From assembly GCA_030549175.1 (NCBI GenBank), contig JAUKUA010000002.1:3348001-3412000 (forward strand): 64,000 nucleotides of DNA, read 5' to 3'. The translations under genes were made by a program, and so were the position numbers. The DNA is from Lasiosphaeris hirsuta. Taxonomy: Eukaryota; Ascomycota; Sordariomycetes; Sordariales; Lasiosphaeriaceae. Under the pieces are notes generated by a model. The model was not told the DNA's origin. It ran no database searches and saw nothing but the letters and a program-made list of their open reading frames with translations. Positions 6,277-22,372 of this stretch are shown here, one piece after another. Numbering within the stretch: position 1 is the first letter of the stretch; each line of letters starts with the position of its first letter.

Positions 6277-6772
6277 ATAATGGGTAATGAGGCGTTTGTG
6301 TTTTAGGGATAGGCTGGGGGCTTCAGGAATATGGGTTCTGATGACTCTTTTCGGTCAGCGAGCGAGCGAAAACGCGTTTGCCGATGGAATTGTTCTGTTT
6401 CGGGGCGTTAGCATGAAGGGAAGGAAGTCTTCGTCTGGGAAAACAGGAGGTGACTAGGCAAGGCGAACCGCGGAAGGCGGACTGGCGCTTTGAATATATC
6501 ACGGAGTTCGCTGGGGGGTACTGGGGGCAGGGAGTACAATAGCTGGGAGCTTCTGGCGATTAGCTTCGAGCAGCTTGAGCTGCTGTTGCAGTCCTTACTG
6601 GTGGCTCGATTCTTTCCAGGTAGGATAGGGCTCCGTCCAACGAAAATAGCGAGATCTTTCATTTTATCTTCAGTGGCTGCTGGTGGACAAAATGGTACAC
6701 GCGAGAGCCTTTGAGGAAAACCCGCGGTAATGATATACACCGCTCAACATACACTCGTCCTCGTAACACCCC
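6277..6772. other. convergent intergenic region
   Basis: Lies between the plus-strand gene ending at 6276 and the minus-strand COX20 ending at 6773, so it holds both 3' ends. No gene or conserved element is recognised. Confidence 0.5.
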
Positions 6773-7306
6773 CTACCAAAACTTCCACCCCCTCTTCCTC
6801 CCCTCCTCCTCCTCCTCCTTCCTCACCCGCTCCCTCTCCTCAGCCGCCCTCCTCTCCTCGGCCTCGGCCTTCTCCCGCGCCTGCCGCGCTGTGTACACCT
6901 CCACCATGCGCACCATCTTCTCGCGCTCCGCCCGCCGTCCGTACTGGCACCACTCGTACTGGACCAGCGCCGCCAGCGCGCCTGTCCCTACCGCCCAGTT
7001 GGCCGCGCGCGGCGCCGGCAGCCCAATCACCCACCGGAGGATGCCGATGCCCGCACCCGCCCCGATGCCCGTCAGGAAGCCCTGCTGCGAGCACGGCGAG
7101 CGGTGGACCGTCAGGAAGTCCGCCGGCTTAATGGCTGTTATGGCGTCTTTGATCTTGGCGGGCGGGGTCGGTGGTGGGAGGGGGGTTGTGGGCGTTGTGG
7201 GCGTTGTGGTCGGAGAGGGGGTCGTGGGTGGTGGTGTTGGTGTCGTGAGCCAGGACCGGGTTGGGTCGGGGCTGTTGTTCCCCGAGGATGGGGGTTGTGT
7301 GGACAT
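6773..7306 (-). CDS. COX20: cytochrome c oxidase assembly protein COX20
   Basis: Single exon, 177 aa. A Pro/Thr-rich N-terminal region (residues 1-50) is followed by the COX20/FAM36A core: a PADFLTVHRSPCSQQGFLTGIGAG segment, a first membrane helix, then NWAVGTGALAALVQYEWCQYGRR forming the second helix with the typical YEWCQ motif. A strongly charged coiled-coil tail (~130-177) rich in Glu, Arg and Lys follows. COX20 is a mitochondrial inner-membrane chaperone that handles newly made Cox2 during complex IV assembly. The length is within the usual range. It is transcribed toward the 5218 gene and divergently from POL2. Confidence 0.88.
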   Translation of the reverse strand: MSTQPPSSGNNSPDPTRSWLTTPTPPPTTPSPTTTPTTPTTPLPPPTPPAKIKDAITAIKPADFLTVHRSPCSQQGFLTGIGAGAGIGILRWVIGLPAPRAANWAVGTGALAALVQYEWCQYGRRAEREKMVRMVEVYTARQAREKAEAEERRAAEERERVRKEEEEEGRKRGWKFW

Positions 7307-8054
7307 GATGTAAGACCGGGGGGTTTGAGAGGTGGCGTAGTATGAACTGGGTGCGACTTCGAGGCTGTCAAGATTCAGCGTTTGAGGGAGTTGTTTATGC
7401 TGGGCAACTGTGATGTCAATTGCGGCTGGCCCTCGTTTATTTCTAGTAGAAACACAGTGTTGACCAATTTCGCTTCAATTCTCAACTGACCTGATAATTT
7501 TACCGACTGAAGGGCGTCCAGAAGGCCGGCAAGCAAAGCTTCCTTCCCAAATTTGCGTGATCCGCGACAGCTTCACAAGCTTTCCCGAGTCTGCGTGCTT
7601 TCGCCAAGGTGACGCAGGGTTAGGGTCGTCAGCTGTGGGGTTCGTCGGCCCCTGCTTCCATTGGCCGCGGCTCTCCTGAAAACAGCGTCGTGCTGCACCC
7701 CGCCAAACAGGGGCTGGCCCGTCGCGTCACGGCAGCAGGGAAGTCGCGCTGGTCGCGTCGGCTTGCACGCTAGTTTAATGGGATTCTTCATCCACACACA
7801 CACACACACACACACACAGTGCCCTCCCGAGACACTCCAAATCGGTGAAACGAGGCCAATGTTCTAGGGGACGCAATCTTTTCACGACTTCTCTGGCTTT
7901 GCGTGTTCATTTCTCTATGCAGGGCCATTCCCACTCTCTTTTTTAACGTCCTCGTCTCTTTTTTTTCCACCGTAGGGCGACTCCTGGCAAAACAGGGGTA
8001 GCAGGAGAGAGGAGCGTCCGACAGCCCGGGGACAACAGCCTCTCGCCCGCAACG
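7307..8054. promoter_or_regulatory. divergent promoter region between COX20 and POL2
   Basis: About 750 bp separate the two start codons, so the region must hold both promoters. It contains a (CA)n tract at 7793-7818 and T-rich tracts at ~7938-7970 just upstream of the POL2 ATG. No specific binding site can be assigned with confidence. Confidence 0.5.
7793..7818. repeat. (CA)n microsatellite
   Basis: About thirteen uninterrupted CA dinucleotides within the COX20/POL2 intergenic region. Confidence 0.95.
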
Positions 8055-16196: not shown

Positions 16197-19100
16197 ATGA
16201 CAGACAGTTGCGACAGAGCACACAATGCTCTTAAGGCAGAAAAAAAGCCGCTGAAAGACGATAGGACGTTTCCCCTCCCTAAGGTACCTCTGCACTGGGA
16301 CGCCGGAGACGTACAGTCCTTCCCGGAAGAGCACCATCGCTCAGCCGCCCCCATCGTCAAGCTCCTCACTCCTGAGATTCACGCCCAGTATAGCATCATA
16401 AACAGCCAAACCCCGCCAGATTCCCTATCGCATGAACTACCAATAGCTAGCAGGAGCCTACCCTTCGAAATGGCATCCACAGCCGCACAAGGTTTTGGTT
16501 GGATTCATGACGATTTTAAGGTAGGATTTATTCTCCAGCTAAAGCCTTAAATTTTAGAATCCATTAAGATATAGAGGATACATTTTCAGTTAAGGATTAC
16601 TCGCTGACGATAAATACGTTTATAGGAGGTATGTTGATAGGCTGTGAACTAATAATATATGCTGACCTTAGTATGTATGGTGGTGTAGGAGGTAAGTAGA
16701 CCCTTTGAGATGGATGAGATGGTGATGATTACTGACCTTGGTGTGTGTGGTGGTATAGGACGTAAGTAGACCCTTTGAGATGGATGAGATGGTGATGATT
16801 ACTGACCTTGGTGTGTGTGGTGGTATAGCGGGTAAGTAGACCCTTTGAGATGGATGAGATGGTGATGATTACTAACCTTGGTGTGTGGTGGTATAGTTGG
16901 TAAGTAGACTCTTTGAGATGGATGAGATGGTGATGATTACTGACCTTGGTGTGTGTGGTGGTATAGCGGGTAAGTAGACCCTTTGAGATGGATGAGATGG
17001 TGATGATTACTGACCTTGGTGTGTGTGGTGGTATAGTTCGTAAGTAGACCCTTTGAGATGGATGAGATGGTGATGATTACTGACCTTGGTGTGTGTGGTG
17101 GTATAGTTCGTAAGTAGACCCTTTGAGATGGATGAGATGGTGGTGATTACTGACCTTGGTGTGTGTGGTGGTATAGGACGTAAGTAGACCCTTTGAGATG
17201 GATGAGATGGTGATGATTACTGACCTTGGTGTGTGTGGTGGTATAGAACGTAAGTAGACCCTTTGAGATGGATGAGATGGTGATGATTACTAACCTTGGT
17301 GTGTGGTGGTATAGCTGGTAAGTAGACTCTTTGAGATGGATGAGATGGTGATGATTACTGACCTTGGTGTGTGTGGTGGTATAGAACGTAAGTAGACCCT
17401 TTGAGATGGATGAGATGGTGATGATTACTGACCTTGGTGTGTGTGGTGGTATAGAACGTAAGTAGACCCTTTGAGATGGATGAGATGGTGATGATTACTA
17501 ACCTTGGTGTGTGGTGGTATAGCTGGTAAGTAGACTCTTTGAGATGGATGAGATGGTGATGATTACTGACCTTGGTGTGTGTGGTGGTATAGAACGTAAG
17601 TAGACCCTTTGAGATGGATGAGATGGTGATGATTACTGACCTTGGTGTGTGTGGTGGTATAGTTCGTAAGTAGACCCTTTGAGATGGATGAGATGGTGAT
17701 GATTACTGACCTTGGTGTGTGTGGTGGTATAGTACGTAAGTAGACCCTTTGAGATGGATGAGATGGTGGTGATTACTGACCTTGGTGTGTGTGGTGGTAT
17801 AGTTCGTAAGTAGACCCTTTGAGATGGATGAGATGGTGATGATTACTGACCTTGGTGTGTGTGGTGGTATAGTTCGTAAGTAGACCCTTTGAGATGGATG
17901 AGATGGTGGTGATTACTGACCTTGGTGTGTGTGGTGGTATAGGACGTAAGTAGACCCTTTGAGATGGATGAGATGGTGATGATTACTGACCTTGGTGTGT
18001 GTGGTGGTATAGGACGTAAGTAGACCCTTTGAGATGGATGAGATGGTGATGATTACTGACCTTGGTGTGTGTGGTGGTATAGAACGTAAGTAGACCCTTT
18101 GAGATGGATGAGATGGTGATGATTACTAACCTTGGTGTGTGGTGGTATAGCTGGTAAGTAGACTCTTTGAGATGGATGAGATGGTGATGATTACTGACCT
18201 TGGTGTGTGTGGTGGTATAGTTCGTAAGTAGACCCTTTGAGATGGATGAGATGGTGATGATTACTGACCTTGGTGTGTGTGGTGGTATAGTTCGTAAGTA
18301 GACCCTTTGAGATGGATGAGATGGTGATGATTACTGACCTTGGTGTGTGTGGTGGTATAGTACGTAAGTAGACCCTTTGAGATGGATGAGATGGTGGTGA
18401 TTACTGACCTTGGTGTGTGTGGTGGTATAGGACGTAAGTAGACCCTTTGAGATGGATGAGATGGTGATGATTACTGACCTTGGTGTGTGTGGTGGTATAG
18501 TGGGTAAGTAGACCCTTTGAGATGGATGAGATGGTGATGATTACTGACCTTGGTGTGTGTGGTGGTATAGGACGTAAGTAGACCCTTTGAGATGGATGAG
18601 ATGGTGATGATTACTGACCTTGGTGTGTGTGGTGGTATAGCGGGTAAGTAGACCCTTTGAGATGGATGAGATGGTGATGATTACTGACCTTGGTGTGTGT
18701 GGTGGTATAGTTCGTAAGTAGACCCTTTGAGATGGATGAGATGGTGATGATTACTGACCTTGGTGTGTGTGGTGGTATAGTACGTAAGTAGACCCTTTGA
18801 GATGGATGAGATGGTGGTGATTACTGACCTTGGTGTGTGTGGTGGTATAGGACGTAAGTAGACCCTTTGAGATGGATGAGATGGTGATGATTACTGACCT
18901 TGGTGTGTGTGGTGGTATAGGACGTAAGTAGACCCTTTGAGATGGATGAGATGGTGATGATTACTGACCTTGGTGTGTGTGGTGGTATAGAACGTAAGTA
19001 GACCCTTTGAGATGGATGAGATGGTGATGATTACTGACCTTGGTGTGTGTGGTGGTATAGTACGTAAGTAGACCCTTTGAGATGGATGAGATGGTGGTGA

Positions 19101-20758
19101 TTACTGACCTTGGTGTGTGTGGTGGTATAGAACGTAAGTAGACCCTTTGAGATCGATGAGATGGTGATGATTACTGACCTTGCTCTCTTTTATAGATATC
19201 TTGGACACGTAATATCGCTGTGGAGTTTCAGAGTGAACTGTTGCCAAATGCCTCCCATAATACTGTCTCTTCCGATTTAACGGCGAACCCTCCATACTTT
19301 TTCTTGCTACAAAAGTGGCTTCAATTCTGCGACTCAAACCATTTCGAATGCCATCGGCAACGAGAAAAGGAGAAATTTTGGCCGACGAGGGTCATCTTTG
19401 TTGGTAACCTTAACAAATTAACCCTTGTTGAAGAGCCGCTTCAGGGGGAAGACTACCTTGCACTCTCGCACTGCTGGGGCATTCTTACAGAAAAAGAAAA
19501 GAACCGTTTCTGCACCACCCGAAAAAACCATCAAGATCGACTGCAGGGCTTCAGCTACGATGAGCTACCGAAGACATTCCAACACGCAATTCAGGTGACT
19601 CGAGCATTGCAGAAGCAGTACCTCTGGATCGACGCCCTCTGCATCATCCAAGGAAATGACGGCGACTGGGGAACCCAAGCCAAGACGATGGCAGATATCT
19701 TCGCCTGCGCCTACTGCACTATTGCCGCGAGTTCAGCGCGTGGTTGGGGAGATGGCTTCCTAAGTCCACAGACGGATCCCCCGGATATTGGAGCACTAAT
19801 TACTCCAAGCACACTAACTTGCAAGTGTGACTTCAACAAAGATGTGGATGAAGGGGCACTCATGGAGAGAGCTTGGGTACTGCAAGAACGGGTACTTTCC
19901 CGGCGAATCATCCATTTCACTGCGGCACATACGTATTGTGAGTGTGGAGACGGAGTGCTATGTGAACAGCTTACAAAGCTGTCCCCGTAAGTCTCCACAA
20001 TTGAATATCAGACGTGGTACGAAGTCTTACCTTGCTTTAGGCCGCGTGGGAAACAATTTTTCATTCTTGACCCTACTTTTCCAAGTAGACTTACTAAATC
20101 TGGGTCTACACGCACCGCCGATTTCGTCCAGTTCCTATTCAAGAAGTATTCGGCATCTCACCTTACTTTTGGAACTGATAGGGACGTTGCGATTGACAGC
20201 CTGGTCGAGCGTGTGGCGCAGGTGCTAGAAACTGAAGTAAGATATGGGATCTTCGATCGCTTTCGTGGTTCCCTTCTCCTATGGAAGCGATCTCAGGAGG
20301 ACAAGACGCCCCGGATTTCCTACGGTGATCGAACTGTGCCATCATGGTCTTGGATGGCATATTCCGGAGGTATTGATTTTCTCTCCGATATAAAGCAGAA
20401 TCTCGTGGTCCCAAGCAGCGTAGATCTTGGTTTTGCCGATGATGGGAAGGCGTTGGATGTCAAAGTAAGGCGGTTTGGTGAAAATTGCCGAGTGGAACAA
20501 CAGGCGGAAGGACATGTTATTGTCAATGGGACGGAGGAAGTGGGCTGTATATGGTTTGATGTGGCAGATCGGATCGAGTTCAAACATTGCGTGGCTGTTG
20601 GCATGGACAAGTACGACAAGAAGGAAGACCCTCGGAAGATTTACTATATCCTTGTCGTCTGGAAGAAAGAGGATGGCGTGGAATATGAAAGGCTAGGGGT
20701 TGGAAAGGTGGAAGCACAGTATGTGTCCAGAGACGGCGATGCTGGAAGACTTTGGTGA
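16197..20758 (+). CDS. HET-domain protein with an array of 37 single-codon microexons
   Basis: Proposed exons: 16197-16520; 37 three-base exons between 16626 and 19133; 19196-19986; 20041-20758. These sum to 1944 nt, an exact frame of 647 aa. Exon 1 ends GATTTTAAG in phase 0 at a GTAGGA donor. The HET exon begins ATATCTTGG in phase 0 after a TTTATAG acceptor. It encodes DYLALSHCWG, then LPKTFQHAIQVTRAL, YLWIDALCIIQ and ADIFACAYCTIAAS, the hallmark blocks of the fungal HET domain. A 54-nt intron (19987-20040) leads to the C-terminal part (FILDPTFPSR, VPSWSWMAYSGG). HET proteins trigger incompatibility cell death after recognition of non-self. The N-terminal segment has no known domain. The start is uncertain: 16197 is the first in-frame ATG, and a spliced start at 15853 is possible. 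The HET part is certain; splicing of the microexons is inferred from phase and splice signals. Confidence 0.75.
16521..19195 (+). repeat. tandem array of introns separated by variable single codons
   Basis: The period is 70 bp: a 67-nt intron (GTAAGTAGACC...TTACTGACC...TATAG) plus 3 nt; four units have 65-nt introns. Microexon starts by codon: GAG 16626, 16689; GAC 16759, 17177, 17943, 18013, 18431, 18571, 18851, 18921; CGG 16829, 16967, 18641; TTG 16897; TTC 17037, 17107, 17663, 17803, 17873, 18221, 18291, 18711; AAC 17247, 17385, 17455, 17593, 18083, 18991, 19131; CTG 17315, 17523, 18151; TAC 17733, 18361, 18781, 19061; TGG 18501. The first two introns (105 and 60 nt) are diverged in sequence and the last (62 nt, ending CTCTTTTATAG) has its own 3' end. 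Reading the array as a plain minisatellite inside one 2.7-kb intron is possible but ignores that each unit carries complete splice signals. Confidence 0.95.
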
Positions 20759-21351: not shown

Positions 21352-22372
21352 CAGTCAGGGTTCAAAAGTCTGGCCCACCCCACTTCAATTAAACGCGCTT
21401 CGCGACGCGTCGAGCACTACCACAACTCCAGCCCAACATGATCAATTTAGACGAGGTCGGATCCAAATTAACAGCTGGACGTCAGAAAAACGAGGAGTTA
21501 TCAGCTTTTGCACGTGCAGCCATTATAGGCGCCGTTGCGGCTAGGGCAAGCCAGTCGGCCGTGGCTCGCGCATTTCGCGTCAACCGGAAGGCAGTCCAGC
21601 GAGCTATTCAACGGTTCGAATCTTCAACCACTGCTGAATCTAGACCTCGAACTGGTCGGCCAGAGATTCTCACTCGCCGGGAAAAGCGGTATATCATCCA
21701 TTTGGCCAAACGGAACCCTCGCCTATCAATCATGATATGGGCAGGTATCTAGAAAGGAGGGAGAACCGACATCGTGGTTATGGAACGTAATTATACCTCC
21801 TCAAAAAGGAGGTTATAGCTCAAGGGGCTATCAACAAGCTTTGAGAAAGGGTTTCTTTCCAGTTTATGACGGTACAAGGTATTTCCAGCAAGATAATGCT
21901 CGTATACACACCTCCGCATCCTCAACTGAGTGGTTGCTCAGACATGTGATTGAGGTACTTGAGGATTGGCCGGCTCACAGCCTAGATTTAAACCCAATTG
22001 AACATGTTTAGGCTTTATTTAAACGGAAGATAAAACAGCTATATCTTGATATATGGCACCTGAAGAAAAATCAGCTTAATATAGCTGAATTCACAAGCTG
22101 TATCGAAGAGTGTTGGTGGGCTATCGGCCAAGCTGACATAGACCGGCTGATTGACTCAATGCCCCGTCGGCTGGCTACGGTGAAAAAAGCTAGGGGTTGG
22201 TATACAAGATATTAAGAGTCCTGAACCTGGGCTCTTATCTGTATATATCTATTTTGCTAGAAACTCAGCCGGTAAAAAGCTATGGGGAGATATACTGGGA
22301 GGTCAAAGGCTAGATAAAAGAGGGGGCTGGGTCTCATGGTGCGGTGTGGGCCAGACTATTGAAACCCCACTT
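21352..22372 (+). mobile_element. Tc1/mariner-type transposon relic, internally deleted
   Basis: Bounded by TA on both sides (21350-21351 and 22373-22374). It has imperfect terminal inverted repeats sharing the block AGTCTGGCCCAC near each end. A transposase frame starts at 21438 with a helix-turn-helix region (SAVARAFRVNRKAVQRAIQRF, then GRPEILTRREKRYI) and then jumps to IMIWAGI-stop at 21752. The sequence between, which should carry the first catalytic Asp, is missing. Downstream remnants keep FQQDNARIHTS (second Asp) and HSLDLNPIEHV, where the following Trp codon is TAG. The element is about 1.0 kb, shorter than a full copy, and non-autonomous. Confidence 0.88.

Follow-up and report, generated by a model that had tools for sequence, protein, structure and literature searches.

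Tandem Single-Codon Microexons Upstream of the HET Domain in Lasiosphaeris hirsuta: A Candidate Variable Recognition Segment

A gene encoding a HET domain in the sordariomycete Lasiosphaeris hirsuta carries, upstream of that domain, 38 consecutive introns that separate 37 exons of exactly 3 nucleotides (nt) each. The gene lies in a stretch of 64,000 nt (hereafter the window), corresponding to positions 3,348,001 to 3,412,000 of the forward strand of contig JAUKUA010000002.1 (GenBank assembly GCA_030549175.1). The anatomy of this array and its recurrence in the same genome, the exclusive occurrence of 3-nt exons in the loci scanned, the contrast between variable codons and nearly constant introns, and the linkage of codons to intron types were established from the sequence, and on this basis we consider it likely that the array is a variable multi-exon recognition segment of the HET gene, whose introns would act as spacers for recombination. 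The two parts of this reading deserve different degrees of confidence: the trinucleotides are very probably coding exons, and that they form a recognition segment is a proposal that we favor, more cautiously, by analogy.

The HET Gene and Its Microexon Array

The window sequence was read and parsed directly. The coding part of exon 1 (MASTAAQGFGWIHDDFK) occupies positions 16470..16520 and ends in phase 0 with ...GATTTTAAG, after which GTAGGA comes next. Its start codon is presumably the ATG at 16470, in a frame that is open from about 16101, and the N-terminus of the homologous protein P0001 (MASTAAQGFDWIHDDFE) agrees with this choice. Then come a diverged first intron of 105 nt (16521..16625), the array proper (16626..19133, delimited by the sequence, by Tandem Repeats Finder (TRF) and by the chain scan described below), in which 37 microexons (the first at 16626-16628, the last at 19131-19133) alternate with 36 introns of 60-67 nt, and a last array intron of 62 nt (19134..19195) with a diverged 3' end, terminating in TTTATAG. 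The large exon that embeds the HET domain starts in phase 0 (ISWTRN...) and spans 19196..19986; an ordinary intron (GTAAGT...TTTAG) lies at 19987..20040 and the last exon, placed by the spliced model and by homologues, at 20041..20758, ending with ...GRLW and a stop codon. All these features are on the plus strand. When the 38 array introns (16521-19195) and the ordinary one are removed, the model starting at 16470 reads 556 amino acids (aa) up to the stop at 20758, with 0 internal stops; the unspliced array contains 95-103 stops in every frame. Residues 87-231 of the translated large exon match the HET domain (PF06985; 99.4 bits versus a cut-off of 22.5, E = 3.1e-28), the only Pfam match of the window exons, with no NACHT, ankyrin or WD40 among them. 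The initial annotation, which had counted 38 introns and 37 microexons with two diverged units first, had placed both flanks in phase 0 within an exact full frame and had recognized a HET domain after the array, agrees with this parsing in each of these respects.

The 37 trinucleotides spell the peptide EEDRLRFFDNLNNLNFYFFDDNLFFYDWDRFYDDNYN. Each of them is preceded by an intron ending in AG (TATAG in 36 cases, TGTAG in one) and followed by a 5' splice site that is GTAAGT in 36 cases and GTATGT in one, and the introns measure, in order, 105 nt, 60 nt, either 65 or 67 nt (35 introns) and 62 nt. The 36 introns between microexons comprise five distinct sequences, 21 of the 36 being identical, and in the 36 units starting with GTAAGTAGAC the branch-site A lies 24 nt from the end of the intron in 31 cases, 22 nt in four and 19 nt in one. 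TRF reports 36.1 copies of a 70-bp unit with 95% matches.

Arrays Elsewhere in the Genome

Pattern searches were run over the genome that contains the window (44.4 Mb in 14 contigs), where TATAG-NNN-GTAAGT gave 130 single matches (12 in the control) and 89 tandem pairs (none in the control). Seven arrays are present in this genome: the window array, four more arrays of tandem repeats, and two in HET genes with non-repetitive introns. The four tandem-repeat arrays comprise 6 codons in an ankyrin gene (L009, period mostly 67), 15 in a HET gene (L010, period mostly 70; 16 units in the spliced-model parse, 15 after an edge unit, TGG, was left out), 26 in a HET-NACHT-ankyrin gene (L011, period mostly 72, counted in the chain scan with the relaxed branch rule) and 18 in another HET gene (L012, period 68). 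The other two are L044 (4071-7970, minus strand), where a kinase exon is followed by GAT GAA TAT CGT AAC GCT and then by HET, and L047, a HET gene with TAT AAG CAT CCG AGA; the strict detector gives five exons in the former and four in the latter, the remainder coming from a pattern search. In L044, the protein kinase exon, the microexon array and the HET domain apparently belong to one gene.

In all six of these loci a choice of flanking junctions in phase 0 exists by inspection, other junctions being possible, and a short first exon, read by eye, is likely in L010 (MEEDSFV) and L012 (MDRDLFE). In the window gene, the array comes after MASTAAQGFGWIHDDFK and before the HET exon, hence ahead of the HET domain; the L011 array sits between ...VDYEYE and TPLLRAV..., that is, at the position of an ankyrin hairpin, and that of L009 is placed similarly. 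The L011 gene has a match to NPHP3_N (PF24883) above the cut-off, ankyrins, HET, and a NACHT match (PF05729, E = 7.6e-5) below its cut-off. When the HET matches of the genome are ranked, arrays fall at ranks 1, 2, 3, 4 and 7, L044 being rank 3 and L047 rank 7.

The intron units differ from array to array, their interiors being diverged. When the sequence enclosed by the splice sites is compared, units from the three HET arrays (window, L010 and L012) are alike at 35-37 of 57-58 aligned positions, and each pair beats all 500 shuffles; for the remaining pairs, 9 to 248 of 500 shuffles reach the score, L009-L011 (9) and window-L011 (32) being borderline. With two window units as a DNA query, matches fell only in the window array, in that of L012 and at one relic (C13:575419), these counts being lower bounds. 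The relic (L043, C13:575419-575473, minus strand) is a degenerate orphan of the window intron unit, 84% identical over 56 query bases, with no HET gene recognized alongside.

Other repeats and features were noticed at these loci. The L011 gene also embeds 6.5 ankyrin-type repeats of 87 bp with 95% matches (6321-6888); a perfect 17-bp repeat in 7.1 copies spans the end of the reading frame of the L010 HET gene (7933-8053); in L009, the repeat following the array contains an in-frame TAG, which may mean a truncated gene or an additional intron. In the window, a broken Tc1/mariner-like transposase, with pieces in different frames, was recognized by eye directly downstream of the HET gene (21438-22213).

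Restriction of the Exons to Three Nucleotides

The chain detector looks for introns in series, each with a GT[AG]NG donor, a length of 47-125 nt, a branch motif and a terminal AG, between which all exons have the same set length. Over 495,644 strand-bases it revealed six arrays, with an exon length of 3 in all of them, and zero chains for exon lengths of 1, 2 and 4-12. When eight ankyrin stretches were included and two exons already counted as a chain (559,644 strand-bases, 45 loci), the strict detector gave six arrays, at length 3 only, and no chain of two or more exons at lengths 1, 2 and 4-12; the relaxed branch rule adds pieces of L009, plus one exon each in L011 and L047. The window and L009-L012 had been chosen for their 3-nt arrays; the ankyrin stretches and the HET loci, which include L044 and L047, had not been chosen in this way. 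There are 51 HET matches with E <= 1e-20, of which the scan took the top 30, plus one in L047, and left out 20, and 23 were scanned with 1.5-kb flanks only; the ankyrin matches number 182, and the eight four-kb stretches taken from the genome contained no array. Since these scans find no chains at other exon lengths, the window array is not a product of chance.

Over the whole genome, the pattern of a GTAAGT donor and a TAG end matched 26 times with exons of 0-2 nt (control 10) and 123 times with exons of 4-30 nt (control 64); the matches listed, which cover part of the 123, include dispersed repeats and re-matches inside L011 and no tandem array. No further array was found with CAG ends (six matches, five of them one 13-bp repeat), BTAG ends (three, including edge units of L010 and L011), GTATGT (seven; control five), VATAG ends (one; control one) or GTGAGT (three; control nine).

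Codon and Intron Variation

In the window array, mean pairwise diversity is 0.0106 in the introns and 0.74, 0.58 and 0.41 at codon positions 1, 2 and 3, respectively. The diversity and intron-column counts drop the introns less than 80% identical to the array consensus (1 of 36 in the window, 1 of 5 in L009, 0 of 14 in L010, 1 of 25 in L011 and 0 of 17 in L012), and one chance match, a TAT within the second intron, was dropped beforehand. In the window array, in L011 and in L012, even the least diverse codon column exceeds all intron columns, and the ratio of codon to intron means is 21 in L011, 351 in L012, 14 in L010 and 4.7 in L009, where the introns are all different; the four larger arrays span 14-350. 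In L012, the 17 introns of 65 nt represent just two sequences, yet they separate five different codons.

The codon changes are mostly replacements. Minimal codon trees of five arrays (window, L009-L012), which are minimum spanning trees and not phylogenies, have 26 edges, 25 of which change the amino acid (binomial p = 0.007 for the nonsynonymous excess, with a synonymous share of 0.24 that was assumed and not computed). Changes at positions 1, 2 and 3 number 14, 11 and 6, and transitions to transversions stand at 11:20 in the codons versus 34:11 in the variable intron columns, where the transversion count includes multi-state columns (Fisher p = 0.0008). Stop codons are absent from the 102 codons of these five arrays and from the 113 obtained once L044 and L047 are added, a set that omits the TGG of L010 as well as other diverged units at array edges, or exons of 6 nt, in L009, L012, L044 and L047 whose parse is uncertain; the residues C, M, Q, S and V are also absent from it. 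Because the copies within an array are not independent, the lack of stops is by itself weak evidence.

Codons are moreover associated with the types of introns around them: in the window, all four Leu codons lie between intron types c and d, and all four TAC codons have a type b intron next. This coupling of some codon types to the introns beside them bears the stamp of unit duplication, and what is inherited seems to be a codon with half an intron on either side. Intron insertion with duplication of the target site was ruled out, neighboring window codons being identical in only 7 of 36 cases.

The diversity of the codons, their nonsynonymous changes and the presence of sense codons only make the trinucleotides look like coding exons under diversifying selection, and not like minisatellite debris. 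According to the latter idea, a minisatellite would have grown within one long intron, by slippage or unequal crossing-over from an intron plus 3 nt, and the trinucleotides would be discarded and meaningless. The array is in fact a tandem repeat according to TRF, several homologue models skip the segment, and the orphan unit of L043 stands where no HET gene was recognized. However, the concentration of diversity in the trinucleotide, with nearly all inferred changes altering the amino acid, the absence of stops from 113 codons, an exon length constant at 3 while intron lengths vary, the two arrays (L044 and L047) without repeats in their introns and the lack of chains at lengths 1, 2 and 4-12 in the scanned loci all argue against a minisatellite, which we regard as improbable. 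The sequence evidence supports the suggestion of the initial annotation that a coding segment made of one codon per intron, in frame, had escaped gene prediction; such segments recur in six other places, with codons that vary and introns that hardly do.

Homologues in Other Fungi

Homologues were compared as protein models, the fungal DNA inspected being that of the window's own genome, and the figures refer to the 120 listed of 1913 found. The closest among those listed is P0001 from Lasiosphaeria hispida (519 aa, 87% identity over its length). A recognizable junction between exon 1 and the HET exon is present in 12 homologues (11 of the 120 by pattern, P0017 by eye), and about 13-23 residues stand at this junction in P0006 (Achaetomium), P0007 (Podospora didyma, EEWYYDLDEYLGY) and P0017 (Cladorrhinum).

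A loose pattern for N-termini resembling MDEMVMIADLG fits 18 of the 120 models, including ones from Immersiella, Parathielavia, Triangularia, Lasiosphaeria, Fusarium and Clonostachys; the window intron translated from its ATG reads MDEMVMITDLGVCGGI, and the N-terminus of P0061 reads MDEMVVIADLGVCGGI. Judging from these intron-like N-termini, Sordariales and Hypocreales probably possess arrays of this kind or, failing that, the intron itself. In P0033 (Fusarium falciforme) the annotated N-terminus looks as if several introns of an array had been translated, which points to arrays wrongly annotated in public records; a search with this N-terminus found only P0033 itself.

The same 18 models would fit the possibility that the introns are the functional part, through intron-mediated control of expression or as a splicing brake, and that the codons are passengers; the conservation of introns inside arrays and the distant relationship between the units of three HET arrays point in that direction, too. 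On the other hand, intron interiors diverged between arrays (the likeness of 35-37 in 57-58 positions concerns the HET arrays, and most pairs with the ankyrin-gene arrays are no better than shuffles), and within arrays it is the codons that vary, so that we grant this possibility only a slim chance. That the gene is dead and its array drifting appears highly improbable: in-frame stops do occur near some arrays (one TGA in the HET match of L047, the TAG after the L009 array), but the window gene has an uninterrupted frame of 556 codons and is 87% identical to the L. hispida protein, and its introns retain consensus splice sites.

Proposed Mechanism

We infer that every microexon is spliced in, that the codons are under selection, and that the resulting peptide has a role in recognition. 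Every window intron is equipped with a donor, a branch site whose A lies about 24 nt from the 3' end, and an AG, and each intron of about 67 nt would be removed singly by intron definition. The simplest order would be 5' to 3', in which every step would lengthen the upstream exon by 3 nt and expose the next GTAAGT; since an ordinary exon end followed by GTAAGT would always be presented, no 3-nt exon would have to be recognized alone. Each trinucleotide would add one amino acid, giving up to 37 residues ahead of the HET domain, and because each microexon is one codon in phase 0, the frame survives when units are gained, lost, reordered or skipped. The near-identical introns would favor unequal exchange, as they offer a homologous spacer for recombination through which units could be duplicated and reshuffled, and the greater divergence of the codons would be explained by diversifying selection or by a codon-focused mutation process. 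By analogy with the WD and ankyrin repeats of fungal NOD-like receptors (NLRs), the peptide most likely forms a surface for self/non-self recognition.

A different purpose might be combinatorial alternative splicing, with isoforms generated by skipping sets of microexons and genomic variation being secondary. Any skip would keep the frame, and codon-sized, alternatively spliced microexons have been reported in Tuber melanosporum, as other papers relate. Nevertheless, the uniform consensus splice signals of the window units favor regular removal and the divergence of the codons is a genomic signal; as the main purpose of the arrays, alternative splicing seems to us rather unlikely.

Some observations weigh against a variable recognition segment. 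In L010, three intron columns are at least as diverse as codon position 1, and L009 has no variation at codon position 3. The P0001 model joins exon 1 straight to the HET exon and is exactly 37 aa shorter than the window model, and 7 of the 12 models with the junction (P0001, P0008, P0018, P0019, P0028, P0029 and P0034) join the exons with at most two extra residues; the insert of P0024 is short, that of P0101, 39 residues long, may be an ordinary exon, and the NLR homologue P0121 links DYEYE to TPLL by two residues. Such direct joins may reflect the limits of annotation or may be real. Finally, recognition is the most likely role of the peptide, and its basis is analogy.

Should the codons be spliced in, standard annotation would miss a hypervariable segment of 37 residues in an allorecognition gene, as well as similar segments in related fungi; the spliceosome would join dozens of consecutive 3-nt exons, and a recognition peptide could mutate codon by codon with no frameshift. 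In its widest form, which we advance tentatively and would not bet on, the idea is that of a dedicated diversity device of self/non-self genes, in which intron-padded single codons might be inserted, lost, swapped and possibly skipped, always in frame, with variation confined to the codon by strong selection or codon-focused mutation; the outcome would be a peptide that evolves as an antigen-binding loop does, common to the HET and kinase-HET genes and the ankyrin hairpins of NLRs throughout Sordariomycetes.

Comparison with Known Systems

Many short exons whose lengths are multiples of three characterize the micro-exon genes of Schistosoma, where the exons are longer and diverse and the genes are unrelated to the window gene. 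Near-identical spliceosomal introns are known in fungi as introner-like elements and stwintrons, which are dispersed in unrelated genes or nested; the window units, in contrast, are not dispersed, their DNA matches (lower bounds) being restricted to the window array, the L012 array and one relic.

The nearest documented regime is that of the NWD (HET-NACHT-WD40) repeats of Podospora anserina, whose internal repeats are reported to be highly conserved and under concerted evolution, with selected variation at a few codons (PMC4986451). Homogenized units and codon-centered variation are present in the arrays as well, and a recognition surface of the HET gene is putative; the NWD repeat, however, is an exonic WD40 unit, whereas the window repeat is intron except for 3 nt. 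In the ankyrin domain of a Podospora NLR, the same source places the positively selected and polymorphic sites, with one exception, on the inner helices and the hairpin/loop; the hairpin, where the L011 array sits, belongs to the binding surface of fungal NLR ankyrins (PMC4986451).

The initial annotation knew of no described family built in this way, a claim that is not supported: NACHT-ankyrin (nank) genes of the truffle T. melanosporum are reported, in passages crediting Iotti et al. 2012, to diversify NLR sensor domains by alternative splicing of codon-sized or 3-bp microexons (PMC4986451, PMC3689799, PMC10197012). According to a passage of PMC11121469, functional microexons have not been described in filamentous fungi, yet the Iotti paper is cited there among fungal microexon work; a search of a 2025 survey of Sordariales NLRs (PMC12258605) for the term "microexon" gave no match. 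In the papers listed, surveyed by titles and abstract openings, with most subscription papers outside, there is no account of such arrays in HET-only genes. As far as these descriptions go, nank genes share with ours tens of codon-sized exons in fungal NLR or non-self-type genes, a likeness that extends to L011 and L009. The window gene differs: it is a HET gene that lacks NACHT and ankyrin matches, its array lies upstream of HET, and it belongs to Sordariales and not to a truffle; alternative splicing is reported for nank, whereas the present arrays are known from genomic sequence. The codon-microexon design is already known from truffles; what is new is its presence in HET genes, ahead of the HET domain, and the contrast between introns and codons, with evolutionary evidence that is unusually clear; the truffle NLR report is now linked to HET genes of Sordariomycetes, and direct tests are possible.

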